A program made the translations under genes and the position numbers. The notes below the pieces were generated by a model. That model was not told the DNA's origin and did not search any database. It saw nothing but the letters and a program-made list of their open reading frames with translations. From Actinomycetota bacterium (GTDB taxonomy: Bacteria > Actinomycetota > Acidimicrobiia > Acidimicrobiales > Ilumatobacteraceae), in assembly GCA_016213625.1 (NCBI GenBank), contig JACQZZ010000013.1, positions 62,001 to 126,000 on the forward strand: 64,000 nt of DNA, in the 5' to 3' direction. Positions 7,044 to 62,273 of this stretch are shown piece after piece (position 1 is the stretch's first letter; each line of letters opens with the position of its first letter).

Positions 7044-7979
7044 TCAGGGGTCGATGTGGTCGTCGCTCTCGCCGCGCAGGAACACCTGACCCTCGGTGCA
7101 CTCGCTCTGCAGCGGGCACCAGCGGCAGGCCACGCCGACCTTCTTCAGCGGTGTGCGTCCCTCGACGGTGAGCTCCACGTGGCGGGCGATGCCCTCCAAC
7201 GCGCGGGTGAGCGCGGCGTGCAAGGTGCCTTCGGTGACGTCCTCCACGTCGCTCTCGGCGTAGTCGAGGTAGTAGGTGACCAGCTTGCGCGGCGGCACCT
7301 GCTGGCGCAGCGTCTGTACGAGTGCGTAGAAGCGCAAATCGTCGCGATGATGGAACGACTTGTTGCCGCTCTTGAAGTCGATGATGAGCAGCCGGCTCTC
7401 GCGCCCCGCGGGCTTGCCCACCACGAGGTCGACCTTGCCGGTGAACTCGATGGTGCCGGTGGGCTTCCATCTCGCTGCTGCCTCCAGCACCGGCTGGGCC
7501 GACAGGGGGAGCGGCGGGAAGTCCTGGAGGAACTTGGTGGTGCGGTCGATCGCTCGGCTGCGCAGCTCGGCCCACTCGCCCTCGCTGAGGCCGGCCACGT
7601 AGGCCCCGCGGTTGTCGGCCTGATCCACCAGGCGGGCCATCGCGTCGTCGACCACCGCGGCGGGGTGCGGCTCGCCGCGCCAGTTGAGCGAGAGTTCGAT
7701 GGCCTTGTGGGCCACGAATCCGGCGGCCGACGCGGGCTTCCACTGGAAGTCGTCGGGCGCCAGGTGGCGCACCTCACAGCCGTGCACCTTGGCCAGGAAG
7801 CCCTTGCTCACCCACAGCGACTCGCCCTCCAGGCGAGCCGACAGCTGGGCGATCTCGGTGGTCGCCCGCTCGAGCAGCTCGTCGACGAACTCCTGCGGGA
7901 ACACCAGCGGCTCGGTATCGCGCCGGATGAGCGCCAGCGTGCGTTCCTGCGTGGGGGTGAGCGCGGCGGGTTCCTGCAC
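7044..7979 (-). CDS. PD-(D/E)XK nuclease of the RecB/AddB C-terminal type
   Basis: 311 residues. The nuclease core is visible as IEFTGKVDLVVGK (catalytic Asp) followed by RLLIIDFKSGNKSFHHRDDL (the D-x-K pair) and QTLRQQVPPR, near residues 175-230. Downstream, ACRWCPLQSEC with a further Cys-rich tail recalls the iron-sulphur cluster of AddB/Cas4-like RecB nucleases, though the more distal cysteine of that cluster is not obvious. Likely acts on DNA ends in repair. No cas genes or CRISPR repeats are nearby, so a CRISPR role is not supported. It shares a divergent upstream region with the 111-residue protein at 8094. Confidence 0.82.
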   Translation of the reverse strand: MQEPAALTPTQERTLALIRRDTEPLVFPQEFVDELLERATTEIAQLSARLEGESLWVSKGFLAKVHGCEVRHLAPDDFQWKPASAAGFVAHKAIELSLNWRGEPHPAAVVDDAMARLVDQADNRGAYVAGLSEGEWAELRSRAIDRTTKFLQDFPPLPLSAQPVLEAAARWKPTGTIEFTGKVDLVVGKPAGRESRLLIIDFKSGNKSFHHRDDLRFYALVQTLRQQVPPRKLVTYYLDYAESDVEDVTEGTLHAALTRALEGIARHVELTVEGRTPLKKVGVACRWCPLQSECTEGQVFLRGESDDHIDP

Positions 7980-11541: not shown

Positions 11542-11628
11542 GCCCGGGTGGTGGAACTGGCAGACACGGGGGGCTTAAACCCCCCTGAGGGAGACCTCAT
11601 GTGGGTTCGAACCCCACCCCGGGCACCA
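11542..11628 (+). tRNA. tRNA-Leu (anticodon UAA), CCA encoded
   Basis: The 7-bp acceptor gcccggg/cccgggc closes the molecule, with discriminator A and an encoded CCA (11626-11628). The anticodon loop cttaaac gives UAA at 11576-11578 between five G-C pairs. A long variable arm (ctgagggagacctcat region) marks it as class II, and the T arm is gtgggttcgaaccccac (11601-11617). It is intact and probably functional, and it is the integration target of the element that follows. Confidence 0.96.
11601..11628 (+). other. Probable attachment site (attL) in the tRNA 3' end
   Basis: Inferred: tyrosine integrases of actinobacterial ICEs commonly recombine in the T arm and acceptor of a tRNA and restore the gene. 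The integrase starts 98 bases downstream in the same direction. I looked for a second copy of ttcgaaccccaccccgggca to the right and saw none before 64000, so attR is outside the window or reduced. Confidence 0.55.
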
Positions 11629-11726
11629 CGATCTAGCAGGTATTATGCTCTCTTAGAGCACCGGCGAGCAGGTGACGCCCTGGCCTTTCCTGCACAGATC
11701 CTGCACAGAGTTGCTACGGTTGCACC

Positions 11727-12866
11727 ATGGCTCGTGGTTCTGTGAGACGACACGACGGTGGTTGGGGCTATCGCATCGACCTCGGCGCGGACCCGTCTAC
11801 CGGCAGGCGTCGCCAGGCGTCGAAGCAGGGTTTCCGCACGAAGCGCGAAGCCGAGTTGGCGATGCAGGCGATCATGAAGTCGCATCTCGAGGGGAACGTC
11901 CCGCAGCGAAGCCAGCGGACCGTTGGCGCCTTCCTCGATGAGTGGCTGGTGCTGCAGCGTGATCGGCTCCGCCCGTCGACTTACTACAGCTACGGGGTCG
12001 CGATTGAGCGAATCAAGTCTGGCCTCGGCATGGCAAAGCTCCAGTCGTTGACGCCGTTGCAGATCGAGCGCTTCTACCACTCACTCGGGTCCGACGACGC
12101 CAAGAGCGGCCTGGCTCCAAAGACGGTCCGCAACACCCACGTCGTCCTCCGCAAGGCGCTGTCTGATGCGGAACGCCTGGAGCTCGTGACGCGCAACCCG
12201 GCCGCGTCTGCACGTCCGCCGTCACCCACTCGTTCGGATCGTTCAACGTGGAACTCGGAGCAGCTTCGCGAGTTTCTCGACGGGGTTGAAGGCGAACGCC
12301 TCTTCGCAGCTTTCGTGTTGTTGGCCACTACTGGCATGCGACGAGGCGAAGTGATCGGTCTGCGGTGGCGAGACCTCGACTTCGATGCAGGCGACCTCGC
12401 GGTTGCGAACACTTTGACGACCGCCGGGTCATCGACGGTCGTGTCCGGCCCGCCGAAGACGCCCCGCAGCCGACGTCAGATCTTCCTCGACGAGTGGACA
12501 CTCGATGTGCTTCGAGGGCACCGACGTGCGCAAGCCGCCGAACGTCTGGCGGTAGGACCTGCGTGGAATGCGGGGGAGGACTACGTGTTCACCGACGAGG
12601 TGGGCAACTCGCTGCACCCCGACTCCGTGTCACGGCAGTTCCAGCAGGCGTTGAACCGTTCCGGTCTACCTCGCATCCGACTGCACGACCTCAGGCACTC
12701 GTACGCGACGGTCGCCCTAAAGGCCGGCGTGCATCCGAAGGTCGTATCGGAGCGACTTGGCCACGCAACCGTCGGGGTCACGCTTGACCTGTACTCACAC
12801 GTGACGCCTTCGATTGCTCGCGATGCAGCGAGCGTCGTTGCGTCGAAGATCCGCGCCGCGCAATAG
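11727..12866 (+). CDS. int: Site-specific tyrosine recombinase (phage/ICE integrase)
   Basis: 379 residues. The N-terminal AP2-like arm-binding part (RRHDGGWGYRIDLGADPSTG, QGFRTKREAELAM) is followed by a SAM-like core-binding domain (about 65-150, TVGAFLDEWLVLQRDRLRPS). The catalytic domain has the first Arg in TTGMRRGEVIGLRW (about 198-211), a Lys in PKTPRSRRQ, the H-x-x-R box LHDLRHSYATVALKAG, the second His in LGHATVGVTLDLYSH and the Tyr nucleophile in that segment. It cuts and rejoins DNA at the tRNA-Leu attachment site. No disabling change is visible, so the element may still be mobile. A short hairpin (gctctcttagagc, 11647-11659) lies in the 98-base leader. Confidence 0.95.
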   Translation: MARGSVRRHDGGWGYRIDLGADPSTGRRRQASKQGFRTKREAELAMQAIMKSHLEGNVPQRSQRTVGAFLDEWLVLQRDRLRPSTYYSYGVAIERIKSGLGMAKLQSLTPLQIERFYHSLGSDDAKSGLAPKTVRNTHVVLRKALSDAERLELVTRNPAASARPPSPTRSDRSTWNSEQLREFLDGVEGERLFAAFVLLATTGMRRGEVIGLRWRDLDFDAGDLAVANTLTTAGSSTVVSGPPKTPRSRRQIFLDEWTLDVLRGHRRAQAAERLAVGPAWNAGEDYVFTDEVGNSLHPDSVSRQFQQALNRSGLPRIRLHDLRHSYATVALKAGVHPKVVSERLGHATVGVTLDLYSHVTPSIARDAASVVASKIRAAQ

Positions 12867-38068: not shown

Positions 38069-38707
38069 TCAGCGTCGGCTGTGCGAACGCTCGGCACGCT
38101 TCCAGGCGCCGGCGTCGTTGAATGCCCACTGCATCAGCTCGGTGCTGACGTTCATGTGGCTGGCCGCTTCGCGAATGACCTCGCGTCGTTCATTAGCGCT
38201 CGCCGCGAAGTTGCGTCGAGCAGTTGCCACGGTGAACGCCTCCGAGATGAGCAGGCATCGGCCGAGGAGCCCGGCTTCTGCCTCGACTCGGGCGTCGCTG
38301 ATGCGCACCTTCGTGCCGGACAGGAATGGGGTGTTGCTGTGCTGGAGGATCGCATGAGCGGCCTCATGGGTCTCCGTGGCTCGCTGGCGTTCGACGCCGT
38401 GAGAGTCGTTGATCAGAACGACACGCCTTCCGCCTCGATTGACGAGAGCGCCAGAGAAAGAACTCTGATCAACGACGTACAGTTGAGCGGTCGCGACCCA
38501 CAGCGATTCGTCGACCTCGGCGACCTCGGACAGACCCCAGCGACGAAGGTCGAGCAGCTCGAAGAGAGCGGTCGTGTCGAGGCGGTCGTTGGTCCTGAGG
38601 CCCAGGGTGGAGCGGATCGCCTCGGCCTGTCGACTTGCCTTGGCCTTGAAGCCGTGCAGGTACTCCTTACCGCGCAGCGCGCTTCTTGCGATGAGCTCCT
38701 CTTCCAC
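38069..38707 (-). CDS. ImmA/IrrE-type metallopeptidase
   Basis: 212 residues from a GTG at 38707, two bases after the stop of the XRE gene. The active site RATETHEAAHAILQH gives HExxH near residue 118, and a third ligand is expected in the helix ARVEAEAGLLGRCLLI (E-x-x-A pattern, about 145). The N-terminal half (AIRSTLGLRTNDRLDTTALF, ELLDLRRWGLSEV) is the usual IrrE lead-in. ImmA/IrrE proteins cleave an XRE-family repressor to switch on mobile-element or stress genes; the partner is the gene just upstream in the same operon. Confidence 0.86.
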   Translation of the reverse strand: MEEELIARSALRGKEYLHGFKAKASRQAEAIRSTLGLRTNDRLDTTALFELLDLRRWGLSEVAEVDESLWVATAQLYVVDQSSFSGALVNRGGRRVVLINDSHGVERQRATETHEAAHAILQHSNTPFLSGTKVRISDARVEAEAGLLGRCLLISEAFTVATARRNFAASANERREVIREAASHMNVSTELMQWAFNDAGAWKRAERSHSRR

Positions 38708-38708
38708 A

Positions 38709-39068
38709 TCAGCCGTCCTCTTTGAGCCTCTCGTACGCCGCTCTGACGATTGCGGCGATCGCGTCTGCCGAGTGAGAACTGAGCTGCGGATCGGCTCGGA
38801 GGAGGGCAGCGATCGAGGTGGGCGCGTAGTGCACCTCGTCGCTGCGACGGAGGAACAGGTTGGCGTCGACCGACGCCCATTTGCAGAGTCGAGCGAAGCT
38901 GTCGATATCGGGCCGCGTTCCCGTTTTCAGTCGCGACAACGTGGACTGGCTGACACCGCTGGCGTCGCTGACCTCCTTCCAGCTCGCGAGGTCGTGCGCA
39001 GCCTTCGCTCCTTCAAGCGCCTCGACGAAAGCATCGAGGTCGAATGTGTGTGGGTTGTCCTCCGGCAT
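38709..39068 (-). CDS. XRE-family repressor, partner of the ImmA-like peptidase
   Basis: 119 residues (120 if the first of two adjacent ATGs, 39071, is used; the GGAGG spacing favours the second). HTH of the lambda-repressor type: ASWKEVSDASGVSQSTLSRL and KTGTRPDIDSFARLCKWAS at about 35-70. SVDANLFLRRSDEVHYAPTS and a C-terminal helical part follow. It is divergent from the ubiquitin-like operon, with two inverted repeats in the intergenic region, so it probably represses both itself and that operon until ImmA cleaves it. Confidence 0.84.
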   Translation of the reverse strand: MPEDNPHTFDLDAFVEALEGAKAAHDLASWKEVSDASGVSQSTLSRLKTGTRPDIDSFARLCKWASVDANLFLRRSDEVHYAPTSIAALLRADPQLSSHSADAIAAIVRAAYERLKEDG

Positions 39069-39103
39069 CATGCCTCCTACCGGGGAAAGCATAACTCTTT
39101 TCG

Positions 39104-39179: not shown

Positions 39180-39476
39180 GTGAACGAACCGCACACCGAG
39201 CAGAGCCACACCGACAAGCAGGACGACGTCTCGAAGCGACCCCGCTTCGTGGTGATCCCTGTGAATACCGAACCGGTCCGCTTCGAGAAGAAGGACGAGT
39301 TGACCGGGCTCGAAGTGAAGGAGACAGCGATCGACCAGGGCGTCGACATCAAGGTCGACTTCGTTCTGACTGTCGTCCATGCCGGCGGGCACAGCCGTCA
39401 GGTCGGCGACTCGGACACGGTGAAGATCACCGAGAACATCGAGTTCTTCGCGATCCCGGACGACGACAACTCGTGA
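39180..39476 (+). CDS. Multiubiquitin-family ubiquitin-like protein (single Ubl domain)
   Basis: 98 residues, GTG start after AAAGGAGAG. A polar tail of about 20 residues precedes one beta-grasp domain: PRFVVIPVNTEPVRFEKKDE, LTGLEVKETAIDQGVDIKVD, FVLTVVHAGGHSRQVGDSDT and VKITENIEFFAIPDDDNS. This order (LTG-x-E/I-K-x-x-A, G-D-x-D-T-V-x-I/V, F-x-A-I) is that of the bacterial Multiubiquitin family, the modifier in operons with E1, E2 and JAB proteins. The end is DDDNS without glycine, and there is no Cys. GTGA overlap with the next gene. Confidence 0.78.
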   Translation: MNEPHTEQSHTDKQDDVSKRPRFVVIPVNTEPVRFEKKDELTGLEVKETAIDQGVDIKVDFVLTVVHAGGHSRQVGDSDTVKITENIEFFAIPDDDNS

Positions 39477-39880
39477 ACACCACCGTCGCATCCGCGATCG
39501 AGAGCGCTATCGACGATCTGCGCCGACACTTCGGCAACAACTCGGTAACCGTGCTCGGACACGACACGGGCGGCACCTGGGTGCGAGTCGATGGTGTCGC
39601 TCTTGGAGGGGTGTGGATCCAGGCGACGACGTTTGTGATCGTCCACCTCGCGTCGACACTGCCGTTCGCCGACATCTATCCGATCTTCGTCCGTGCCGAT
39701 CTCGGTCGAGCCGACGGCCGACCGTTGCAGACACCGGTGACGCCGGGCCATCAGGCCGGCCCGATCGGTGCTCAGGTGCCTGCGGCCCAGGTGTCGCGCA
39801 GAACGCGCGGAGACGCATCACGCCAGACCGCCGGACAGAAGATCACCAAGGTCATCGAGTGGCTGCGAGTCCAGCCATGA
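39473..39880 (+). CDS. E2/UBC-fold-like protein without cysteine
   Basis: 135 residues from a GTG overlapping the Ubl stop. An N-terminal helix (AIESAIDDLRRHFGNNSVTV), a beta sheet (TWVRVDGVALGGVWIQATTF, VIVHLASTLPFADIYPIFVR) with the L-P-x-x-(D)-x-Y-P element of E2 proteins, then ADLGRADGRPL, and a C-terminal QVSRRTRGDASRQTAGQKIT helix ending KVIEWLRVQP. The layout matches prokaryotic E2-like proteins of Ubl operons. The sequence contains no cysteine, so a thioester-forming E2 reaction is excluded for this protein alone. Overlaps the E1 gene by four bases. Confidence 0.68.
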   Translation: MNTTVASAIESAIDDLRRHFGNNSVTVLGHDTGGTWVRVDGVALGGVWIQATTFVIVHLASTLPFADIYPIFVRADLGRADGRPLQTPVTPGHQAGPIGAQVPAAQVSRRTRGDASRQTAGQKITKVIEWLRVQP

Positions 39881-41271
39881 CGACGTGGAAGGTGTACATC
39901 CGGGGAGACCACTGGCATCGCCTCCACGAGCACCTCCACGGTTCTCCCGGCGAACACGGCGCCGTGTTGCTTTGCGGCGTCGCTCGCGGCGTCGACCACG
40001 AGCGTCTGCTCGTCCACGAAGTGCACATTGCGCAGGACGGGAGCGACTACACGTACGGCGACGGGGTGTACCGACTGAACGGCGCATTCGCGACCCGCCA
40101 GGCGTTACGCGCCCGAAGCGAAGCCCTCGTTTACATTGCGGTCCATCCGCACGGCGGCTTCGACTCGGTCGAGTTTTCCGGCGTCGACTTGCGTAGCCAG
40201 CACAACAGCACCAAACCCCTGCTCGCCGCCTCGGGCAAGGACCGGGTCGGCTGGCTCGTCACCGCTCCCGCCGCGGCGAATGGCGTCATCCGCACGAAGG
40301 ACGGCGAGGAGCCGATCGCAGAGGTGGTCGTCCTCGACGAGTACCAAAGGCTGGTACGCACCCCGCGGCCTGCGAACTCGACGATCGTCAGAACCGAGCC
40401 GAGGTTCGCTCGGCAGGCATTGATCTACGGTGATGTCGGTCAGCGCATGTTCGCGGGTGCCACAGTCGGCATCGTTGGGCTCGGCGGCGGTGGGGCAGTG
40501 CTCAATGACATGCTGTCGTCGCTTGGCGTCGGACACCTCGTGCACATCGACCCCGAGCGGGTCGACATCAGCAATCTGCCGAGGCTCATCGGCGCTACGC
40601 GGTGGGATGCCCTCGAACCGATCTCCCGATGGCTGCCCGAGAAGCTGCGGGAACGGCTCTCCAGGTCGAAGGTCGCCGTCGCCAAACGGGTCGCCCGACG
40701 CAACAACCCGAAGATTCGTCTCACCACGCTGCGTCGCGCGGCGAACCACAACGACGCCGTCGAGGCGTTACTCAAGTGCGATTACATCTTCCTCGCCGCG
40801 GACACGGCCGGGGCTCGCCTGCTCGTCAACGCCGTCAGCGCTCAGTATCTGATTCCGATGACCCAGATCGGCGCAAAGGTCCGCCTCGACGACGAAGGCA
40901 CCGTCAAAGACGTCTACTCGGTGTCACGCGTCGTCGGCAGGGCGCCCGGCTGTATGTGGTGCAACGGGCTGATCAACACCACCCGTCTCGCCGAGGAGGC
41001 GGTCAGCGTGGAGCAGCGAGCCGACCAGCAGTACGTGCAGGGCGTTGCCAACCCCAGCGTCAAGAGCCTCAACGTCATCGGAGCTGCGTGGGCGGTCGAG
41101 GACTTCCGAAACTGGTTCACCGGTCTCCGTTCCGCCGGACAGCTCTACACCACCGCTCATCCTCACGAACCCAGGGTGACGAGCTCGATCCCGCGCCACG
41201 ACGCCGAGTGCCCCTTCTGCACGGACGCTCTCGGGCGAGGCGCTACCGCTGCTCTTCCTGGCGTCACATGA
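39877..41271 (+). CDS. JAB (JAMM) isopeptidase-like domain fused to ThiF/E1-like adenylyltransferase
   Basis: 464 residues. The JAB domain spans about 1-150: Glu26 in SPGEHGAVLLCG, then VYIAVHPHGGFDSVEFSGVD with His90, His92, Ser101 and Asp104. The HxH-to-Ser spacing is 8, one more than the canonical JAMM motif. The ThiF domain begins near 178: MFAGATVGIVGLGGGGAVLN (P-loop-like), HIDPERVDISNLPRLIG (Asp and Arg boxes) and LLKCDYIFLAADTAGARLLV. Cys359/362 and Cys445/448 look like the structural zinc of MoeB/ThiF. Only Cys33 and Cys301 remain, neither at a typical E1 catalytic place. It should adenylate the Ubl and trim or remove it. Last gene of the coupled operon. Confidence 0.83.
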   Translation: MTTWKVYIRGDHWHRLHEHLHGSPGEHGAVLLCGVARGVDHERLLVHEVHIAQDGSDYTYGDGVYRLNGAFATRQALRARSEALVYIAVHPHGGFDSVEFSGVDLRSQHNSTKPLLAASGKDRVGWLVTAPAAANGVIRTKDGEEPIAEVVVLDEYQRLVRTPRPANSTIVRTEPRFARQALIYGDVGQRMFAGATVGIVGLGGGGAVLNDMLSSLGVGHLVHIDPERVDISNLPRLIGATRWDALEPISRWLPEKLRERLSRSKVAVAKRVARRNNPKIRLTTLRRAANHNDAVEALLKCDYIFLAADTAGARLLVNAVSAQYLIPMTQIGAKVRLDDEGTVKDVYSVSRVVGRAPGCMWCNGLINTTRLAEEAVSVEQRADQQYVQGVANPSVKSLNVIGAAWAVEDFRNWFTGLRSAGQLYTTAHPHEPRVTSSIPRHDAECPFCTDALGRGATAALPGVT

Positions 41272-41446: not shown

Positions 41447-42295
41447 GTGAGTCGAATCGGCAGTGTCGGAGGTGTTCCCGTTCGGGTACCTGAATCGAGC
41501 GGTCCGGTCGAGCAGTTGTTGGAGTTCGCCGCTACCTACAACGCGTACGAGACGTTTGCGCGGACGCCGAACGAGCTGGAGCGCATCGTCATGCCGATCT
41601 ACGACGCGATCAGTCGCTCGGGTCAGGTTCCGGATTGGCTCGGTATCGATCTTGCACGCGCCGTCCTATTCTGCGCGTACCGAGCCGATCACTTCGGCGG
41701 CGGCTACGGCCCCTACGAGCCGATGAGAACGCTCGTCGAGGCAATCCGCCAGATGAGCGGAGGTTGGGTCGATCGCCGCGCAGCGGCCCAAACGTCGGAA
41801 CCGCCGAATGCTCGTGAGGCAGATGAGTTTGTTGACACGGCTGAGTACTCAGAAGACGCGATCTATCGCTGGTGGTTCCGCCGGCGCTGGGCTCACGGGC
41901 CCACGCTGTGCTTCATCGGCCTGAACCCCGCAACGGGCGATACCGACGGCAAGCCCCGCCCGACGCTTCGACGTGTTGTCGGATGGGCACGCCGCGAGGG
42001 TTGCGGATCGGTAGTTGTCGTCAACCTCTTCGCATATCGGGCGACGAAACCTGACGATCTCCTTCACGCAACAGTTGACATCGTGGGTGAACAAACTGAC
42101 GACGTCATTCGTCGAGAGTCGTCTGACGCGGCGATCACGCTTGTGGCGTGGGGCTCGCACCGGCTCGCCACGTCGAGAGCCTCGATCGTTCTGCCGCTGC
42201 TGCGCCATCCGGTGTGCGTTGGAATCACGAAGTCGGGTTCACCTTCCCATCCGCTCTTCATGCCGGCAGCCGCGCGCTTCAAGCCCTACCCCTGA
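41447..42295 (+). CDS. DUF1643-domain protein with extra N-terminal domain
   Basis: 282 residues, GTG start. The C-terminal half is DUF1643: GPTLCFIGLNPATGDTDGKP, RPTLRRVVGWARREGCGSVV, VVNLFAYRATKPDDLLHA and GITKSGSPSHPLFMPAAA. The first 130 residues (VEQLLEFAATYNAYETFART, LARAVLFCAYRADHFGGGYG) are not part of that family and look helical. DUF1643 is common on phages and mobile elements; its activity is unknown. It lies 175 bases after the JAB-E1 gene on the same strand, so it could belong to that cargo unit, but the gap shows no coupling. No gene is seen in the gap. Confidence 0.75.
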   Translation: MSRIGSVGGVPVRVPESSGPVEQLLEFAATYNAYETFARTPNELERIVMPIYDAISRSGQVPDWLGIDLARAVLFCAYRADHFGGGYGPYEPMRTLVEAIRQMSGGWVDRRAAAQTSEPPNAREADEFVDTAEYSEDAIYRWWFRRRWAHGPTLCFIGLNPATGDTDGKPRPTLRRVVGWARREGCGSVVVVNLFAYRATKPDDLLHATVDIVGEQTDDVIRRESSDAAITLVAWGSHRLATSRASIVLPLLRHPVCVGITKSGSPSHPLFMPAAARFKPYP

Positions 42296-51369: not shown

Positions 51370-51403
51370 GTGGCTGCTCCTGTCGTTCGCCCGCTGAGAT
51401 GCC

Positions 51404-51538
51404 GGGTTCGTCGTTACGGGTGGCGTCGCCGACGAACGGCCGGTCAACCCGAAGGGCTCGGCCCCGAGCTTGCGAGTGGGCTTGACCGGCCGTGAGCGGG
51501 GACGCGCCCACTGCACCCGCCCGGCGGGCGGCAACGTC
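51404..51538 (-). ncRNA. Structured leader repeat, copy 1
   Basis: First of three related elements of about 135 bases. Described on the plus strand: P2 stem acggccggtcaa (51436-51447) with ttgaccggccgt (51482-51493), 12 perfect pairs enclosing 34 bases that include cccgaaggg-like and gctcgg-cc-ccgagc hairpins. P1 is gttcgtcg with cgacgaac. P3 is ccgccc-ggc-gggcgg (51517-51531). It lies 35 bases upstream of the minus-strand gene starting at 51369, so the transcript is probably the minus strand and the element a 5' leader. Confidence 0.62.
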
Positions 51539-51552
51539 ACCGCTACGCCGAG

Positions 51553-51585
51553 CGTGGCGAGCGGCACCCTCCGCCGCTCGCCACG
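51553..51585 (-). terminator. Strong 13-bp hairpin after the 51592-51969 gene
   Basis: Arms cgtggcgagcggc (51553-51565) and gccgctcgccacg (51573-51585), perfect, loop of 7, six bases beyond the stop at 51592. No T-run. Very likely ends the upstream minus-strand transcript or processes it before the next leader repeat begins. Confidence 0.62.
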
Positions 51586-51591
51586 AGTCGG

Positions 51592-51969
51592 TCAGGCCGT
51601 CGGCTGGTAGGCAATCGCCAGGCACTCGGGGAGGCAGGCCAGCTGTCGCTCGGTGAGCGTCGGAAGGTTGAGGCGGATCGTCACGACGTCGGTGGCGAGG
51701 AAGGTGACCACATGGAACTGGCTGAGCCGCTCCAGGCTGGCCCAGAGCTTGCACCGGTTCCCTGCCAGGCCGACTGACCGAGCAAGCACCGCGGTGTCCC
51801 AGCAGGTCTCGTTGTAGACGGCGTGGCGGGCGAGCAGGTAGGCCAGCACGGTTGCGGTCGGTCCTAGGACGGGGAGCCACCACCAGATGTCGTCGCTGTC
51901 GGTGCGGTGTGGTCCGTCGCAGTGGTCGGCGATCACTCGCACGCTGGTCGGTCGGGTCGTGTCGTTCAT
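51592..51969 (-). CDS. Hypothetical element protein, winged-helix-like (125 aa)
   Basis: From the ATG 51969, preceded by GGAGGAGCTCCCG. WWWLPVLGPTATVLAYLLAR begins a helix-rich domain, then NETCWDTAVLARSVGLAGNR followed by CKLWASLERLSQFHVVTFLA, which reads like a winged helix (helix, turn, recognition helix, beta wing TDVVTIRLNLPTL). It may be a replication-initiator-like or regulatory DNA-binding protein. An upstream open extension to 52203 is leader repeat copy 2 and not counted. The hairpin directly after the stop ends the unit. Confidence 0.62.
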   Translation of the reverse strand: MNDTTRPTSVRVIADHCDGPHRTDSDDIWWWLPVLGPTATVLAYLLARHAVYNETCWDTAVLARSVGLAGNRCKLWASLERLSQFHVVTFLATDVVTIRLNLPTLTERQLACLPECLAIAYQPTA

Positions 51970-52065
51970 CGGGAGCTCCTCCGGGGATTGGGGTGTCCGA
52001 ACGGAGCGGCCGAGTGCTTCCCCAAGACTCGACCGCTCCGACCGGCGACCCGCCCGTTGAGTGGG

Positions 52066-52200
52066 CGGGCTTGCTCTTACGGGTGGCGTCGCTAGCGACC
52101 ACCCGGTCAACCCGAAGGGCTTGGCCCCGAGCTTGCGAGCGGGCTTGACGGGGTGGGAGCAGCGACGCGCCCACCGCAACCGCCCGAAGGGCGGCAACGG
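52066..52200 (-). ncRNA. Structured leader repeat, copy 2 (most diverged)
   Basis: P2 stem ccacccggtcaa (52099-52110) with ttgacggggtgg (52145-52156): the outer five pairs differ from copies 1 and 3 on both sides yet still pair (acggc/gccgt becomes ccacc/ggtgg), with one internal G-G mismatch. The enclosed 34 bases are nearly identical in all copies. P3 is ccgccc-gaa-gggcgg (52180-52194). P1 is not conserved here. It lies 97 bases upstream of the gene starting at 51969. Confidence 0.6.
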
Positions 52201-52422
52201 CACGAGCTGCCGGCTCGCTCACGCTGGGCTGAACCGCTCACCCGACCACTCACTGCACCACTCACTCGGCCGGGAGAGCGTGGTCCGGTTCCGCTACGGA
52301 GACAGACGCGGCCCGGCTCGCTTCTATGGCTGCGCACACGACCTCGACGGCAACGATCTGTCGGTGGTCGAGGTCCGCCACCCAGATCAGGCGGCGGACC
52401 TCCCTCACAGCATCGTCGACTC
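52201..52422. other. Region without a confident gene after ardC
   Basis: Both strands have short open frames of 50-85 codons (for example a minus-strand one containing REVRRLIWVADLDHRQIVAV and a plus-strand one containing RGPARFYGCAHDLDGNDLSV) that are antisense to each other, and neither has a good ribosome site. The left part has tandem actcact-type repeats (ccactcactgcaccactcac, about 52242-52264). Confidence 0.4.
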
Positions 52423-53331
52423 TCACGCCGCGGCCTCGAGCTGCTCGTCGGCCGAGCCGCTGGGCGGTGACCAGCCAGCAAGAGTGTTGAGATGGTCGAC
52501 CGCTCGCTGCGCATGTCCGCACGCGGCAACGAGTGCTCGCGAGTCACTCTGCAGGAGAGCCAACCAGTCGGCGAGGTAGGCGGCGTGGTCCTCGCGAGTC
52601 GCCTGGGCCAGTTCGAACTGAGCACACCAGAAAGCCGCGCCCAACTCTGCGATGAGCTCTTCAGCGCCATAGGCGTGATCGCCGAACCTGCCCGAGAGGT
52701 CACGCCCGAGCCGGTCGGCGTGTCCCGTCCAGTGGGTGTGCTCGTGCGCCGAGGTCGAGTAGAAGTCACTCGGGCGGTCGAACTGCTCGAACGCTGGCAG
52801 GTGGATGGTGTCGAGAGATGGGACGTAGCACGCACGGTCTCCGCCGAGCAGCACTCGCGAGCCGATCGCCGAGAAGTAGGCGTCCGCAGCCGCCACGCGT
52901 TCGCGCTCGGGTCGATCGATGCGCGAGATGAGGACCCGGTCGCCACCCTCGACCTGCTCGGCCGCGAACACGGTGAACGTGCGAGCCAGCAGCGAGCGAC
53001 TCGCCCGACCCGTCTCGTCCTCGCTCGTCACTTGGTCCTTGCGCTCGGTTGGCTTCCACAGGACGACCTGCGTGCCACGCTCGCCGCGGCGAACCTGGCA
53101 GTTGTGCCGCTGCCAGCCGCGGTAGGTCGCCCAGGTCGAGGACCATCCGCGATCTGCCGCGGTCATCGCCAGAACGAGCGCGTTCCATCCGCGATACGGC
53201 CGCCCGTCGATGCTTCGCGGCGTGCCTGCTGCAGCGAGCTGCTGCCATGGCATCCGCCAGCCGCCCGCCCCTTCCTCGATCGCCGCCACCAGATCGGCGG
53301 TCACCTTCTCGAACAGATCATTTGCCGACAT
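52423..53331 (-). CDS. ardC: ArdC-type antirestriction protein
   Basis: 302 residues from ATG 53331. N-terminal ssDNA-binding domain: DLFEKVTADLVAAIEEGAGG, then WRMPWQQLA, SIDGRPYRGWNALVLAMTAA and ATYRGWQRHNCQVRRGERGT. The C-terminal zincin domain has SAHEHTHWTGHADRLGRDLS with HExxH near residue 202 and YGAEELIAELGAAFWCAQFE supplying the third ligand. ArdC protects entering DNA from host restriction. A structured leader repeat lies 24 bases upstream of the start, the same element as upstream of the two smaller genes that follow on this strand. Confidence 0.92.
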   Translation of the reverse strand: MSANDLFEKVTADLVAAIEEGAGGWRMPWQQLAAAGTPRSIDGRPYRGWNALVLAMTAADRGWSSTWATYRGWQRHNCQVRRGERGTQVVLWKPTERKDQVTSEDETGRASRSLLARTFTVFAAEQVEGGDRVLISRIDRPERERVAAADAYFSAIGSRVLLGGDRACYVPSLDTIHLPAFEQFDRPSDFYSTSAHEHTHWTGHADRLGRDLSGRFGDHAYGAEELIAELGAAFWCAQFELAQATREDHAAYLADWLALLQSDSRALVAACGHAQRAVDHLNTLAGWSPPSGSADEQLEAAA

Positions 53332-53354
53332 CTCGACTCCCCCTTCGCAAGTGC

Positions 53355-53490
53355 GGGTTCGTCGTTACGGGATGCGGCGGCGACGAACGGCCGGTCAACC
53401 CGAAGGGCTTGGCCCCGAGCTTGCGAGGGGGCTTGACCGGCCGTGAGCGCCGACGCACCCACTGCACCCGCCCGGAGGGCGGCAACGTCC
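53355..53490 (-). ncRNA. Structured leader repeat, copy 3 (ardC leader)
   Basis: P1 gttcgtcg (53357-53364) with cgacgaac (53381-53388). P2 acggccggtcaa (53387-53398) with ttgaccggccgt (53433-53444), 12 perfect pairs. P3 ccgccc-gga-gggcgg (53468-53482). P1 and P2 share two bases, so they may be mutually exclusive at their junction. The frame that is open through copies 1 and 2 is not in frame with ardC here, which argues for RNA and against a peptide. Confidence 0.65.
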
Positions 53491-55659: not shown

Positions 55660-58600
55660 TCAGTCGGTTTCCGCGACCCACTCGTACAGAAGCGCTCCAA
55701 CGAGGCGGACGATTTCCGCGCGCGTGCCGCTGTCGGAGTAGAAGACGTCGGCCATCTGGTTGTGGGCACCATTGTTGTCGGAGACCGCATCGAGCACCCC
55801 GTCCGTCAGGTGAGGCGACTCGAGGAATTGCTTCTTCGTGTTCACACGCGCTTGCCCGACCAAGGTCGCATCGCCGAGAAGCGTGTTCAGCAAGCCCTCC
55901 ACAAACGTCTGCTTCTGACCGGCCGTGAACGCCTCGTCGCCGAAGAGGTCGTTTAGCCGGTCGATCACCTCCTGGAGCGCGACCATCTTCGGCTCCCGTC
56001 GAGCACCTGACCCGGCGCCAGTAATGCCTCTCAGCCCGACATCGGCATCGACGCCGAGCTTGATGTCGGCGGCACCGCGATCGATCTGTGCGACGTTCCG
56101 TAACGCCACGTCTCCCAAGTCGATCTCGGTCTGTGAACTGCCCGGACGAATCACGCGCTCAAGAAGCCGGTAGAAGTTCGCCCGCTTCTCCATCTCGGCG
56201 CCGTAATCGATGACCTGTGAGATGAAGTCGTACACCCGCACAAACGCCGCGACGTCGTTGCGAAACAATTCCAACTTCGCGAGCTCGGTGCGGTCGCTGT
56301 CCGACTCGGCCTGACGGTAAGCGGCCAGGAACCGTCGTTGCGCCGGCTGCACCGCAGCAGCAAGCGCGTTATTCCCGCCCCCCTTTCCGCGCGCCCCCGC
56401 AACCCAAGCCACGGCCGCCTGATCGATCTCTGCTTGTGTGTAGAGGTTCGACTGATCGAGTTTGGCGGCGATGTCGTTGACGACGTTCGGATCGGTCTCG
56501 ATTTCGATCCACGCGTCCTTGAAGTACGGCTCGAACGCAGAGCGGATCTCGGCGGCGTCGTTAACGAAGTCGAGCACCATCGTGGTGTCCTTCACCTTCC
56601 CGGACGGCGTGACATAGGTGCGGTTCAAGCGGGACAGGGTCTGCACCGCGGCCACACCAGCCAGCCGTTTGAACACATACATCGCCGACAGCAACGGTTG
56701 ATCGAACCCGGTCTGGAACTTGTTCGCCACGAGCATGATCTGGAACTCGCCCGACGCGAACGCCGAGGGCAAGTCCCGTCCACGAAGGTTCGTGTTCATC
56801 GACGCCTCAGTGAACGCGTTCGGCCCCGACTCGGGATCATCCACGGAACCTGAGAACGCGACGAGCGTCCCGATCTCGTAGCCCCGGTCCGCGATGTAAC
56901 GGTCGATCTCCAACTTGTACCGCACCGCCGCCTTCCGCGAATCGGTGACCACCATCGCCTTCGCGTGCCCCTCGAGAAGGTGGGCGACGTTCGCTCGGTA
57001 GTGCTCGACGACGATCCCGACTCGTTGAGCGATGTTCGTCGGATGCAGCGCCACCCACCGCACCAGACCCTTGGTCGCGGCGGCTTGGTCGACGAGCTCG
57101 TCACCGTGCTCGGTGCGCTGTGCGATCTGGAAGGCGAGGGCGTACGTCTGATAGCCGCGCAGTACGTCGAGAATGAACCGTTCCTCGATCGCCTGCTTCA
57201 TTGTGTAGACGTGGAATGGGACCGGCTTGCCGTCGCCGCCGGGTCGTCCGAACAGCTCCAACGTCTTCGCCTTCGGTGTGGCGGTGAACGCGTAGTACGA
57301 GATGTTCGACGAATCCGCTCGCGCCGCCGTCTCCGCGGCGAGCACCGCTTCGATATCGATCTCTCCGCCGTCCTCAACGTCGGCGAGCTCCTCAGTCGTG
57401 AGGACCGCCTTGAGTTTCGAGGCCGTTTGCCCTGTCTGGGAGGAGTGCGCTTCGTCTGCGATCACAGCGAAGCGTTTGCCGGCGAGACCCTTGTGCTTGC
57501 GGATCGCTTCCATGGCGTGAGGGAAAGTCTGGATCGTCACCACGACGATTCGAGTGCCCTTCACGAGTTCGTTGGCGAGGACCGTGGACTTCGACGCGCC
57601 CTCACCCGCGTTGCGGATCGCGGCGTCGTCGACCGTGGAGATGTAGCCGGCGCCCGGCTCGATCTGCCGGATCGCCTGCTGCAGTTGCGAGTCGAGCACC
57701 GTACGATCAGTGATCACGATGACCGTGTCGAACACCGGATCGTTGTTGTCGTCGTGAAGCTTCGACAACCGGTGCGCGGTCCACGAAATCGACCCCGTCT
57801 TGCCGGAGCCGGCCGAGTGCTGCACGAGGTATCGATTCCCGGGCCCTTCGGAGCGACTGCTCTCGACGAGTCTCGTGACGACATCCCACTGGTGAAGCCT
57901 CGGGAAGATGAGCGTGGTGTCGGTCGACTTCACGGCAGAGATCGGGTCGACGGTCGTCTCCGTGGTGACGAACACGAACTTGCCGATGATGTCGAGCCAG
58001 TTGTCGCGGGCCAGCACCCGCTCCCACAGGTAGGCGGTCGCCGAGCCTTTCGGGTTGACCGGGTTGCCTGCCCCGCCGCCGACGCCGAGGTTGAACGGCA
58101 GGAACCGGGTTGTCGGCCCGCGCAACTTGGTGGTCATGTACACGTCGGTGTTTGACACGGCGAAGTGGACAAGCGCACCAGAGATCGGCGTCAATAGCGG
58201 CTCATTACGCGGATCTCGGTCGTGCTGGTATTGGCGGATCGCATCCTGGACGGACTGCGTGAAGTCAGTCTTCAGCTCGGCGGTCGCAACGGGGATGCCG
58301 TTCACGAAGAACACCAAGTCGATGGAGTTTCCGTTCGTCTTCGAGTAGTGCACCTGGCGCATCACGCGCAGCCGAACGCTGGCGTACCGCTCGCCTGTCG
58401 CGGAGTTAAGCGAGTTCTCCGGCCGGAACTGCGCCATCGAGAGCCGGGCATTGATATGAGAGAAGCCCTTGCGGAGTACCGTCACGGTACCGCCACCATG
58501 ATCGTGAGGCGTGTCCAGGGCTGCCCGCAACCGGGCCAACAGCTGAGCTCGCTGCTTCGCCTCTCCGGCCGTCCCCAGCTTCACCACCTTCATCAGCTCG

Positions 58601-58755
58601 TCCGGCTGGGTGGACTCCAACCACCCGACCACGTCGCTCGCGAACAGCGCCAAGTCGCTGTCGTAGCCGGCATCCGTCGGCGAGTACAGCCACCCGTGTG
58701 CTGCAAGGTGATCGCACAGCTCCGTCTCGAACTGCAGCTCGTGGAAGTCACTCAC
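55660..58755 (-). CDS. hsdR: Type I restriction enzyme, restriction/translocase subunit HsdR
   Basis: 1031 residues, complete. The nuclease domain has NSIDLVFFVNGIPVATAELK with the D and E-x-K residues near 155-175. The translocase has the P-loop VQHSAGSGKTGSISWTAHRL (about 305-325), VIVITDRTVLDSQLQQ, RFAVIADEAHSSQTGQTASK (DEAH, near 425), YYAFTATPKAKTLELFG (motif III) and ANKFQTGFDQPLLSAMYVFK with the QTLSRLNRT motif VI. It cuts DNA lacking the HsdM mark after translocation. ATGA overlap with hsdS. Confidence 0.95.
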   Translation of the reverse strand: MSDFHELQFETELCDHLAAHGWLYSPTDAGYDSDLALFASDVVGWLESTQPDELMKVVKLGTAGEAKQRAQLLARLRAALDTPHDHGGGTVTVLRKGFSHINARLSMAQFRPENSLNSATGERYASVRLRVMRQVHYSKTNGNSIDLVFFVNGIPVATAELKTDFTQSVQDAIRQYQHDRDPRNEPLLTPISGALVHFAVSNTDVYMTTKLRGPTTRFLPFNLGVGGGAGNPVNPKGSATAYLWERVLARDNWLDIIGKFVFVTTETTVDPISAVKSTDTTLIFPRLHQWDVVTRLVESSRSEGPGNRYLVQHSAGSGKTGSISWTAHRLSKLHDDNNDPVFDTVIVITDRTVLDSQLQQAIRQIEPGAGYISTVDDAAIRNAGEGASKSTVLANELVKGTRIVVVTIQTFPHAMEAIRKHKGLAGKRFAVIADEAHSSQTGQTASKLKAVLTTEELADVEDGGEIDIEAVLAAETAARADSSNISYYAFTATPKAKTLELFGRPGGDGKPVPFHVYTMKQAIEERFILDVLRGYQTYALAFQIAQRTEHGDELVDQAAATKGLVRWVALHPTNIAQRVGIVVEHYRANVAHLLEGHAKAMVVTDSRKAAVRYKLEIDRYIADRGYEIGTLVAFSGSVDDPESGPNAFTEASMNTNLRGRDLPSAFASGEFQIMLVANKFQTGFDQPLLSAMYVFKRLAGVAAVQTLSRLNRTYVTPSGKVKDTTMVLDFVNDAAEIRSAFEPYFKDAWIEIETDPNVVNDIAAKLDQSNLYTQAEIDQAAVAWVAGARGKGGGNNALAAAVQPAQRRFLAAYRQAESDSDRTELAKLELFRNDVAAFVRVYDFISQVIDYGAEMEKRANFYRLLERVIRPGSSQTEIDLGDVALRNVAQIDRGAADIKLGVDADVGLRGITGAGSGARREPKMVALQEVIDRLNDLFGDEAFTAGQKQTFVEGLLNTLLGDATLVGQARVNTKKQFLESPHLTDGVLDAVSDNNGAHNQMADVFYSDSGTRAEIVRLVGALLYEWVAETD

Positions 58756-60017
58756 GCCGCACCCTGAACATCGATCTGGCCGGTAACTGCCGCCGCGACT
58801 AGAGCTCCACGGCGCTCTTTCGCCAACACGACGAAATGCTCCGCCTTCTGGATCAGCGCGTCGATTCTTGACGTCTCGTTTCGGAAGAGGTCAACACTAG
58901 CCTTCTGCTCGTCGAGACCTGGCGCATCGATCTCGATATCAACCAGGTCTGAGAAGTTGATGCGTGGCGTTCGCACGCTACCCGATTCGATGTTTCCGAT
59001 ACCCCGAACACGGGACGCCATTTCGCTGACAAAGGCCGGAGTACGCATGATGGCTGCGAGCCATCCCGATGCGAGGTTTTCGTGAGTTCTGAGCACCAAG
59101 TAGTCGGGACTGGTAAGGCCCGGCTGAGGCGCTACGCCGAGTGCGCCTTGGAACGCACGCATGCGGTTCACGACGATGTCCCCTCGGTTAACGACTTTGT
59201 AGGTGCTCAGATCGTCGGAGCGGGGCTCGTCATCGGAAATCTCACTGCGCGGACGCACTCCCCAGCTGATCGAGACGGACAGCAACGGAAGGTCTCTCCA
59301 GCGTTCGCCGGCGCGCTCGTCTACGGCGTCGACGTACCACTTCAACCGTCTGCCGGAGCCTACGGCGGGCCCCAGCACCTTGCTCGAAACAGCAGTCGCT
59401 CGCTCTCGAAGCGTCTCGATCAGAAGGATCTGCTTGTCGATCACCTGATCGATCTGGGCCGTTTCCGCGTCGAGGAAGTCCGCGATCCTTCGTTGTTCAT
59501 CCAGCGGGGGCAGGAGCCATGGCGCGTCCGCGAGCTCTTCACGGTTGATCTTCGGCATCTTCACTCTCATCGCGATCGAGCTCGCATAGTCAGAAAAGAG
59601 CTTCGACAGGATGAAGTTCAACGCGTAGCGGACGTCGACCTCGGGCACCGGAGTCATCGCGTACATGTCGGCGCTGCACAGGCAGTCCTCGACGGCGATC
59701 GCCGCCTTGTTCAGGGCCGGGCGGATCTTCGAGTACAAAATCTGACCGGCGGCAGCCACGTACTTCCCGCTGTCAGCGCTCTGGTCGCGAGCTGTCTCTC
59801 GCCCGATAATTCGTCCCGTGTCAGGCTCTATGTGATTCGGCGAGACGAGAACCATGCTTGCCCACGGTTCCTCCCGCGGATCGATCTGACCGCCGTTGAT
59901 CATCATGACGCGACGGAACTTCGTCGCCGTCCAGCCAGCTGGCACCGACCCAACCAATGGGTCCGCCCCAGCTTGCCGTTCTGCGACCGAGCGGTCGGTA
60001 GTCAAGTCCGTCACCAC
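58752..60017 (-). CDS. hsdS: Type I restriction enzyme, specificity subunit HsdS
   Basis: 421 residues, GTG start. Two target-recognition domains separated by a conserved helix: VGSVPAGWTATKFRRVMMIN starts the first, PLLSVSISWGVRPRSEISDD the second. The helical spacers are LLPPLDEQRRIADFLDAETA and IDAPGLDEQKASVDLFRNET. The repeated PxxDEQ-x-x-I-A-type helix start is the hallmark of HsdS. It sets which sequence both HsdM and HsdR act on. Specificity cannot be read from sequence. It starts 73 bases after the hsdM stop. Confidence 0.93.
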   Translation of the reverse strand: MVTDLTTDRSVAERQAGADPLVGSVPAGWTATKFRRVMMINGGQIDPREEPWASMVLVSPNHIEPDTGRIIGRETARDQSADSGKYVAAAGQILYSKIRPALNKAAIAVEDCLCSADMYAMTPVPEVDVRYALNFILSKLFSDYASSIAMRVKMPKINREELADAPWLLPPLDEQRRIADFLDAETAQIDQVIDKQILLIETLRERATAVSSKVLGPAVGSGRRLKWYVDAVDERAGERWRDLPLLSVSISWGVRPRSEISDDEPRSDDLSTYKVVNRGDIVVNRMRAFQGALGVAPQPGLTSPDYLVLRTHENLASGWLAAIMRTPAFVSEMASRVRGIGNIESGSVRTPRINFSDLVDIEIDAPGLDEQKASVDLFRNETSRIDALIQKAEHFVVLAKERRGALVAAAVTGQIDVQGAA

Positions 60018-60090
60018 TGCCGGACCCCTCTCGTCGACCTTGACAGTCCACTGATCTCATTGCCCTGGGACGTCCAAAACCAACGGCCGC

Positions 60091-61854
60091 TCACTTCTCC
60101 ACCTCGCGGAGCAACGCAATGATCTCGCCAGCGAGCTGGTTGAGGTCCGCATCGATCTCGCTGAGTGGGCGCGGAGGGACGTATTTGTAGAAGTAGCGGG
60201 TCAGCGGGATCTCGTAACCGACCCGTGTCTTCCTGTAGTCGATCCACGCATCCGGAACGTGCGGCAGCACCTCGCGTTCGAAGTACGCCTTGATCGTCGC
60301 TTCGACTGGGACAGCTGCATCCAGATCGAACGGGACGTTCTCAGTGTCCCGGAGCCGCGGGTCCGGCTTCGGTTTGACCTTCCGATCTGCTGTTGAGACG
60401 CCGTCGCCGTGGAGCGGACGTTCGACGGTAATCGTGTAGTAGCCGAAGGCCCGACTGTCGAACACTTTGGAAAATTCGAGGTTTTCGGTCGCCTGCTCGT
60501 CGAAGTCGGAGTACATCCGCAGGATGCGGGCACGGCTCGAGTCGTCGATCTTGCGGTTCTTGTTGCCGAGGTTCTTGCTGAGCTTCGTGTAGAACGTCGT
60601 GGCGTCGATCAGTTGAACCTTGCCTCGCCGCTCTACGGGTTTTGTGTTGTCGAGCAACCAGATGTAAGTGGCGATCCCGGTGTTGTAGAACATGTTGGTG
60701 GGCAAGGCGACGATCGTGTCAACGAGGTCGGACTCCAGCAGCCAGCGGCGGATCTCTGACTCGCCGGACTCGGCAGCGCCGTTGAATAACGGTGAGCCAT
60801 TCAACACGATTGCAGCCCGGCCACCGCCGTCGCGTTCGGGTCGCATCTTCGACGCCAGGTGCGACAGGAAGAGCATCTGGCCGTCACTGATCTTTGGCAG
60901 CCCGGCACCGAACCGGCCCGCCTTGCCGGTGGCGGCTCGTTCCTTCTTCACCGCCGCCTCTGACGCCTTCCAGTCGACGCCGTACGGTGGGTTCGAGAGG
61001 CAGTAGTCGAACGTCTTCCCAGCGAACTTGTCGTTGGCGAGGGTGTCGCCCATCTGGATGTTCGAGGCGTCCTGACCCTTCACGATCATGTCGGACTTGC
61101 AGATCGCGTACGACTGATCGTTGATCTCCTGGCCGTACAGCACCATGGTCGCCGTTGGGTTCTGTCGAAGTAGATGCTCTTCAGCAAGCGACAGCATTCC
61201 TCCGGTGCCGGCCGTCGGGTCGTACACCGAGCGAATCACGTCGGGTTTGGTGAGTGCCTCGCTGTCCTCGGCGAACAGCAGGTCGACCATCAGTCTGATC
61301 GCGTCACGAGGTGTGTAGTGCTCGCCGGCCTCTTCGTTCGATGCCTCAGCGAACTTGCGGATCAGTTCCTCGAACAGATCGCCCATTGCTGCGTTCGGGA
61401 CAGTGTCGGGGTGGAGGTCCACATCGGCGAACTGCTTGACGACGAGGTAGAGCCGGTCCTTCTCGGCGAGCGTGGCGATCTCATTTTCAAACTTGAACCT
61501 GCTGAAGACGTCAACGTTCGAGGAGAAACGACTGATGTAGTCGATCAGGTTGTCGGCGAGGCCGTCGGGGTCCGCCAGCAACCGGTCGAAGTCGTATTCC
61601 GACGCGCAGTAGAAACGCAGGTCGGTCTGTTTGCGGATCTGACGTGCCAACAGGTCCGGGTTATCGGTCTTCTCTGCGAGCTTTCGCATGACGGGTCGAT
61701 GTTCGGCCATCACGGCGTCGAGCCGTCGCAGGATTGTCATAGGCAGGATCACGCTGCCGTACTGGTGTGGTTTGTAGACCCCTCGAAGCTGGTCGGCAAT
61801 CTGCCAGATGAAGTTCGCCAGGTTGACCGGGCGCACGGGGCTGCTGGCTGACAT
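60091..61854 (-). CDS. hsdM: Type I DNA methyltransferase subunit HsdM
   Basis: 587 residues from the ATG 61854 overlapping the stop of the RHH gene (TGATG). The N-terminal HsdM_N domain includes FIWQIADQLRGVYKPHQYGS followed by VILPMTILRRLD. The methyltransferase part has SAM motif I SVYDPTAGTGGMLSLAEEHL near 215 and the catalytic motif DYCLSNPPYGVDWK (N-P-P-Y, near 288), an N6-adenine enzyme. The end YEIPLTRYFYKYVPPRPLSE with the following DADLNQLAGEI helix is typical of hsdM products. It modifies the sites chosen by HsdS. Confidence 0.96.
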   Translation of the reverse strand: MSASSPVRPVNLANFIWQIADQLRGVYKPHQYGSVILPMTILRRLDAVMAEHRPVMRKLAEKTDNPDLLARQIRKQTDLRFYCASEYDFDRLLADPDGLADNLIDYISRFSSNVDVFSRFKFENEIATLAEKDRLYLVVKQFADVDLHPDTVPNAAMGDLFEELIRKFAEASNEEAGEHYTPRDAIRLMVDLLFAEDSEALTKPDVIRSVYDPTAGTGGMLSLAEEHLLRQNPTATMVLYGQEINDQSYAICKSDMIVKGQDASNIQMGDTLANDKFAGKTFDYCLSNPPYGVDWKASEAAVKKERAATGKAGRFGAGLPKISDGQMLFLSHLASKMRPERDGGGRAAIVLNGSPLFNGAAESGESEIRRWLLESDLVDTIVALPTNMFYNTGIATYIWLLDNTKPVERRGKVQLIDATTFYTKLSKNLGNKNRKIDDSSRARILRMYSDFDEQATENLEFSKVFDSRAFGYYTITVERPLHGDGVSTADRKVKPKPDPRLRDTENVPFDLDAAVPVEATIKAYFEREVLPHVPDAWIDYRKTRVGYEIPLTRYFYKYVPPRPLSEIDADLNQLAGEIIALLREVEK

Positions 61855-62066
61855 CAGGCGGCGGCCTTCCGGCCCGCGCCCGAGCGTGGCCCGCCGCGCC
61901 GATCGGGTTCGATCCGCCTCCGGATCGATGCGGCCCCAGGCGCCTTGTCCCGGAGCGTCTCCGCAGCGGCGCGCACGACAGCGCTGACCGTCGTTCCATG
62001 AGCAGCTGCTTCCGCCCGTAGCGCTGCCAGCTGGTCGTCCTCGATGGTGACTGTCATCCGCTGCAT
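61854..62066 (-). CDS. Ribbon-helix-helix regulator heading the hsd operon
   Basis: 70 residues from ATG 62066 (ATG 62057 also possible). RMTVTIEDDQLAALRAEAAA and HGTTVSAVVRAAAETLRDKA are the ribbon and two helices of a CopG/Arc-type DNA-binding protein. A flexible Arg/Gly tail (RRRIEPDRRGGPRSGAGRKA) may add DNA affinity. The position, coupled to hsdM, suggests control of the operon, for instance delay of restriction after transfer to a new host. Could alternatively be the antitoxin-like partner of the PIN protein at the operon end. Confidence 0.72.
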   Translation of the reverse strand: MQRMTVTIEDDQLAALRAEAAAHGTTVSAVVRAAAETLRDKAPGAASIRRRIEPDRRGGPRSGAGRKAAA

Positions 62067-62273
62067 GCGGTGACCGTAGCCGTGCTCTGGATTCAGAGTG
62101 TGACTTTGCCCCCGGCGCTTGACATGACCACGTGCGAGATGGAGCGCCCGGCGGGCTGCCCAGCCAGGCCCGTAACCTTGTGTCACGGCTTACTACGGTG
62201 AGTTGGGGCACGCATGGCTAGTTGCTGCGTGCTGACTGGACCGGGATCGTGCGAGTGACGGGGAGGCACAGGT

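Follow-up and report, generated by a model that had tools for sequence, protein, structure and literature searches.

The operon described here occupies positions 39180-41271 of the window, by which we mean the whole 64,000-nucleotide stretch of an Actinomycetota contig (JACQZZ010000013.1) that was analysed. Its three genes follow the order ubiquitin-like protein (Ubl), standalone E2-like protein and JAB-E1 fusion, each sharing four bases with the next, and a pair of genes on the opposite strand lies upstream. The features, with counts from the homologue clade defined below, are:

38069..38707, - strand: ImmA/IrrE-type zinc peptidase, CapP-like (Peptidase_M78, E 3.2e-8; PADLOC capP, E 2.1e-6)
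38709..39071, - strand: XRE-type HTH repressor, CapH-like, divergent (HTH_3, 26.2 bits, cut-off 23)
39180..39476, + strand: BubA-like Ubl of 98 aa, translated from a GTG start and made up of one Multi_ubiq beta-grasp domain (39-sequence alignment A4)
39462..39473, + strand: codons of the Ubl C-terminal Asp-Asp-Asn-Ser, residues 95-98 (exact DDNS in 45/52 tails)
39473..39880, + strand: BubB-like protein of E2 fold, 135 residues, free of Cys and divergently related to Prok-E2_E
39794..39796, + strand: Ser108 codon of the E2-like protein, invariant (43/43; 42/42 in alignment A5)
39877..41271, + strand: JAB-E1 fusion (BubCD-like), 464 aa (profile A1 against the PDB: BubCD, E 7.8e-32)
39952..40188, + strand: region holding the JAMM-type residues E26, H90, H92, S101 and D104 (45/45; 52/52 clade and 12/12 other rows)
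40951..41220, + strand: span of the CxxC pairs C359/C362 and C445/C448, a probable structural zinc site (45/45)

A sequence-only reading of the window had proposed a multiubiquitin-family Ubl, an E2-fold-like protein and a JAB-ThiF fusion. The first and last assignments are borne out by Pfam: the Ubl scores above the Multi_ubiq cut-off (PF14452), and the fusion matches ThiF, its JAB part sitting N-terminally on the E1 module and its JAMM and adenylation residues being complete. The E2-fold assignment holds through profile-profile comparison, which ties the protein to Prok-E2_E (PF14462), but the window copy, with zero cysteines, has no Pfam family match and does not reach the curated cut-off of that family. 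Among the clade E2s, 25/42 match Prok-E2_E at E values up to 1 (best 4.3e-5), and the fold list for the clade E2 has UEV domains, which are inactive E2 folds, near the top. Against the PDB, the Ubl profile gave a rice protein (0.0012) and the multi-ubiquitin 9CD2 (0.0028) as best matches; the E1 profile matched BubCD chains best, and ThiF, MoeB and MccB chains as well. PADLOC models matched neither the Ubl nor the E2, and the fusion matched just models named E1-E2 (best 7.7e-6). A promoter scan gave zero promoter-like sites; terminator-like sites numbered four, versus 1.2 in shuffles. A DUF1643 gene (41447-42295) adjoins the operon on its downstream side.

An operon of this layout has been published as type 6e, the fifth operon type of Iyer et al. 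2006 (PMC1779556). It has between one and three Ubl repeats plus an E2/RWD-type domain without cysteine, which may be part of the Ubl protein or have its own gene between the Ubl and JAB-E1 genes, and which the authors judged likely to be catalytically inactive. An E2 that lacks cysteine and stands in this place was thus on record in 2006, a point the sequence-only reading missed, and the family has solved relatives, the closest being BubB and BubCD of the Citrobacter Bub pathway (PDB 9EA4, 9EAE, 9EAV). A 2026 paper (PMC13373217) puts the number of Bub operons at 544, CapW or CapH+CapP accompanying 219, and credits the pathway to Ye et al. 2026 (PMC12885553) and Gong et al. 2025 (PMC12145246). 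The window operon shares with type 6e its gene order, the JAB domain N-terminal to the E1 module and a sporadic spread, for which Iyer et al. (PMC1779556) name certain actinobacteria. Membership in this Bub-type, or type 6e, conjugation family is firm and we hold it with high confidence. Two differences set the homologues of the window operon apart. Their Ubl ends in DDNS, not in FG, TTEG or similar, and tblastn with four DUF6527 queries matched 0/56 clade loci (the window lying outside this search) versus 5/15 other loci, four of the five positive loci being themselves query sources. We take DUF6527 as the zinc-finger partner that Iyer et al. describe in some type 6e members. Loci L103 and L105 encode Ubl-E2 fusions whose junction contains TTEG and may be cut by JAB, with DUF6527 downstream. 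The kind of operon is therefore known already, and what is new is the DDNS clade; no description of a fixed DDNS tail was found in the literature searched, which lacked the two papers likeliest to show one.

A genome scan with the E1 alignment found at least 45 loci, of which 44 were retained, many of them from metagenome bins. Adding the window locus, nine plasmid loci and three loci of related genomes brings the clade set to 57. Among the matches listed, the 44 scan loci span ten phyla: 16 come from Actinomycetota, 12 from Pseudomonadota, 5 from Cyanobacteriota, 3 each from Chloroflexota and Verrucomicrobiota, and one from each of five further phyla. One plasmid locus, outside the trees, adds Deinococcota as the eleventh phylum. 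The plasmid relatives (H1-H9) were taken from the best 40 of 99 records, leaving out H27, of similar identity; L071 (28% identity, partial) was dropped. In an E1 tree of 54 rows (44 clade, 10 other), from which eight near-copies were removed, as were L023 and L102, the longest of the other rows, the clade splits off at 100/100 support, and a quick tree of 64 rows gives the same grouping; both used LG+G4 with no mixture model and carry long-branch warnings. The window E1 has the longest terminal branch within the clade in the quick tree, and its exact placement is unsure. E1 counts omit the partial rows L063, L066 and L068, and the 52-clade/12-other residue check also omits L054 and L101 and, among the others, L005, L020, L024 and L025; E2 counts omit L037, L041, L057, L066 and L068, and A5 also L055. 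Counts exceed independent events, since near-copies were kept (L093 of L017, L099 of L058, L055 of L053). A genome scan with the single protein gave no relative among 16 pattern matches, none of 127 pattern matches on viral contigs encodes a relative, and phage records gave no match.

The most distinctive property of the clade is the end of its Ubl. Exact DDNS closes 45 of the 52 countable tails among the 57 loci and Ser closes 51, the remainder being DNNS, EDNS and QEDS (once each), HEDS (three times) and DDTSWR (once). Uncounted are L041 and L057 (contig ends), L066 (Ubl not found), L068, where DDNS continues into the E2 frame, and L069, whose Ubl frame stops early at ...EQIDR; counting L069 too gives 45/53. 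L068 (near 7374-7802) is a broken clade locus, its DDNS standing in frame with the E2-like protein with no stop between. In the window a stop codon follows DDNS directly, so that the glycine-free DDDNS end reported by the sequence-only reading is the actual end of the frame and, as the counts show, one kept in homologues. Because homologues were retrieved by E1 sequence alone, the conservation of the tail is not a sampling choice, and chance or truncation is ruled out as its origin; the plasmid relatives retrieved later have DDNS in eight of nine cases and HEDS in the ninth. The 45 exact tails are encoded by 13 DNA strings that use TCN as well as AGY serine codons and three stop codons, and 31/52 Ubl genes do not overlap the next start codon, which argues for selection on the protein and rules out that the tail is kept through that overlap. 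Judged from these comparisons, the glycine-free tail is under selection and is not a truncated one.

The non-clade tails compared end in FG, LG, RG, TTEG, TTEGGAE, FGGTHDRR or PGIRR, and several also in VS, QS, KS or VA, so a glycine-free end is not specific to the clade; among the tails compared, a fixed DDNS was found in clade Ubls only. Five non-clade Ubls end in serine (L080, GQS; L081, RKS; L088, TVS; L090, HVS; L020, GVS), and a C-terminal serine may be of wider use in the Ubl family. One could also suppose that the JAMM domain removes DDNS and that the true C-terminus lies further inside. Bil provides the precedent, the JAMM protease BilC maturing the Ubl BilA according to a review, but the final four residues are the most conserved of the tail, those immediately N-terminal vary and have no common Gly (A4, 39 sequences), and a discarded propeptide is unlikely to be kept exactly in 45/52 tails. 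We regard such trimming as highly improbable.

A second question is which residue, if any, could carry the Ubl. In the fusion, C359, C362, C445 and C448 are invariant (45/45 aligned fusions), and by analogy with the ThiF/MoeB family the two CxxC pairs presumably bind zinc. The other two cysteines, Cys33 and Cys301, which had been singled out from the sequence, are ruled out as catalytic residues, neither being invariant (Cys in 14/45 and 36/45). The E2 alignment has Cys in at most 7/43 rows of any column and 22/43 E2s are Cys-free. The observation that the operon lacks both thioester cysteines and a terminal glycine thus survives comparison with homologues. E1 and E2 of type II CBASS work through cysteines. 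Bil and type II CBASS, which the literature links to phage defence, share with the clade an E1, E2 and JAB set; Bil has named cysteines in E1 and E2, whereas the invariant cysteines of the clade are the CxxC pairs only. Ubl systems that work by thioesters, whether Bil, type II CBASS or eukaryotic, are expected to have conserved E1/E2 cysteines and a Gly-ended Ubl, and neither was found.

What the sequence-only reading overlooked is a candidate for catalysis in the E2: Ser108 is among the invariant residues (43/43 clade E2s; 42/42 in A5) and is the final residue of the strand preceding the last helix. In the canonical E2 fold, this is where the catalytic Cys lies. Assigning Ser108 to the canonical Cys position is a reading of element order, since the profile alignment with yeast Ubc4 (one canonical E2, approximate sequence) failed, at a probability under 1%. 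In nine wider E2 relatives (A6), the only invariant columns are S96 (9/9) and a Trp. A two-step profile route aligns Ser108 with S96 and S96 with a BubB Ser; the equivalence of Ser108 and the BubB Ser would rest on this route, and direct, non-significant alignments between clade E2s and BubB (E 0.098, 0.44) place Ser108 one residue off.

These data bear on whether the E2 carries the Ubl at all. In an alternative scheme, the E1 makes a Ubl adenylate, the E2-fold protein merely holds the target, no covalent Ubl-E2 forms and Ser108 is structural. Invariant cysteines other than the CxxC pairs are absent from E2 and E1, UEV domains score well, and Iyer et al. (PMC1779556) judged these domains likely inactive; all this fits, and the last two points, like the chance that the invariant Ser may be structural, also count against a catalytic Ser108. 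On the other side, most other columns vary, yet the Ser is invariant in the clade (43/43) and also in the nine relatives outside it, a constancy that exceeds obvious scaffold needs. Because of the one-residue BubB offset and the failed canonical E2 alignment, we have lowered our confidence in a serine step to a little above even and raised that in the adenylate-only scheme, which we still consider unlikely.

In the fusion, the JAMM residues E26, H90, H92, S101 and D104 and the adenylation-domain residues R179, N233, R236, K265 and D309 are all kept in 52/52 clade and 12/12 other rows; the roles of the latter five we take from the adenylation family. The completeness of the JAMM site bears on a further possibility, namely that the Ubl is adenylated for sulfur transfer or for an MccB-like peptide-nucleotide, or is a non-covalent regulator. 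The E1 matches to ThiF, MoeB and MccB chains and the tail without Gly would suit it, but a JAMM site complete in 52/52 and an E2-fold partner suggest attach-and-remove chemistry, and BubCD outranks both MoeB and MccB among the E1 matches. We think a function outside conjugation quite improbable.

The clade fusions also differ in charge. Positions 66, 108, 110, 330, 334 and 351 are basic or neutral in the clade and acidic or neutral in the other rows, whereas positions 137 and 211 have changed in the opposite direction, the clade having gained an acid. BubCD has Asp at 330, as do 11/12 other rows, against Gln in 52/52 clade rows; it resembles the clade in having Lys at 334, and the first CxxC pair is missing from its aligned part. 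The first set of changes is what one would expect if both active sites read an acidic tail, a pattern that is only suggestive because the changes are a single event on the tree and mixed in sign. The window fusion keeps R66, Q330, K334 and R351 and carries Q108 and N110, where the clade residues are missing; together with the longest end branch in the clade, this suggests that the window copy of the operon could be drifting.

The window thus holds a Bub-type operon (type 6e of Iyer et al.) that belongs to a separate and widespread clade, marked by DDNS. In the reading we modestly favour, an adenylated, DDNS-ended Ubl is passed on by a serine instead of cysteines and removed by the JAMM protease; we infer adenylation, the serine step, targets, regulation and a role in defence from sequence comparison. 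The E1 half of the fusion would bind ATP and adenylate the C-terminal carboxylate of a Ubl that is ready-made, the conserved -DDNS being its end. The E2-fold protein would then receive the Ubl, most likely as an oxyester on Ser108 in place of a Cys thioester; alternatively, Ser108 could position the attack of a target amine on the adenylate. In the work of Ye and colleagues, Bub conjugation is said to proceed via ester, not thioester, intermediates. The JAMM half would finally take the Ubl off its targets, and the CapP/CapH-like pair probably keeps the operon silent as long as neither DNA damage nor infection occurs. A broader proposal is that the clade, across 11 phyla, embodies a second solution to Ubl tagging, in which a -DDNS Ubl is activated and attached without Cys or Gly by a serine relay and both halves of the fusion, E1 and JAMM, may have changed in concert so as to read this tail; the single, sign-mixed event behind the charge changes lowers our confidence in this to somewhat short of even.

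Control of the operon by the CapP/CapH-like pair is probable. CapP-like matches occur in 28/56 clade loci and HTH matches in 31/56 (either in 43, both in 16), some lying kilobases from the operon and some on cut contigs. The sequence-only reading had also placed the operon on an integrative and conjugative element, with which this part of the window agrees:

11542-11628: tRNA-Leu, with a tyrosine integrase immediately after (span 11542-12866)

After the integrase come genes for a coupling protein, a relaxase of the TrwC type and type I restriction. The integrase beside tRNA-Leu, the relaxase and the coupling protein fit such an element, but its far end was not found. Contig C23 carries the 3' part of the tRNA-Leu again, in one match of 57 bases (98%) and another of 46 bases (100%), and these repeats may be attachment sites or further tRNA-Leu genes. 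Beyond the relaxase, a 136-base direct repeat occurs three times (100, 82 and 93% identity; 51403-53489) around a gene read as a candidate ArdC-like one, and type I restriction-modification genes lie at 55660-62211 of the same stretch. Only gene context bears on a possible anti-phage role of the operon: the CapP/CapH-like pair and the type I restriction genes that share its element.

Textbook Ubl conjugation moves Gly-ended modifiers over Cys thioesters. With a near-invariant non-Gly end and an invariant E2 Ser, the DDNS clade provides a clean test of the need for thioester and glycine, and the old label of a catalytically inactive E2 becomes a testable claim with named residues. The DDNS operon would also add a mobile, probably damage-regulated candidate immune pathway.
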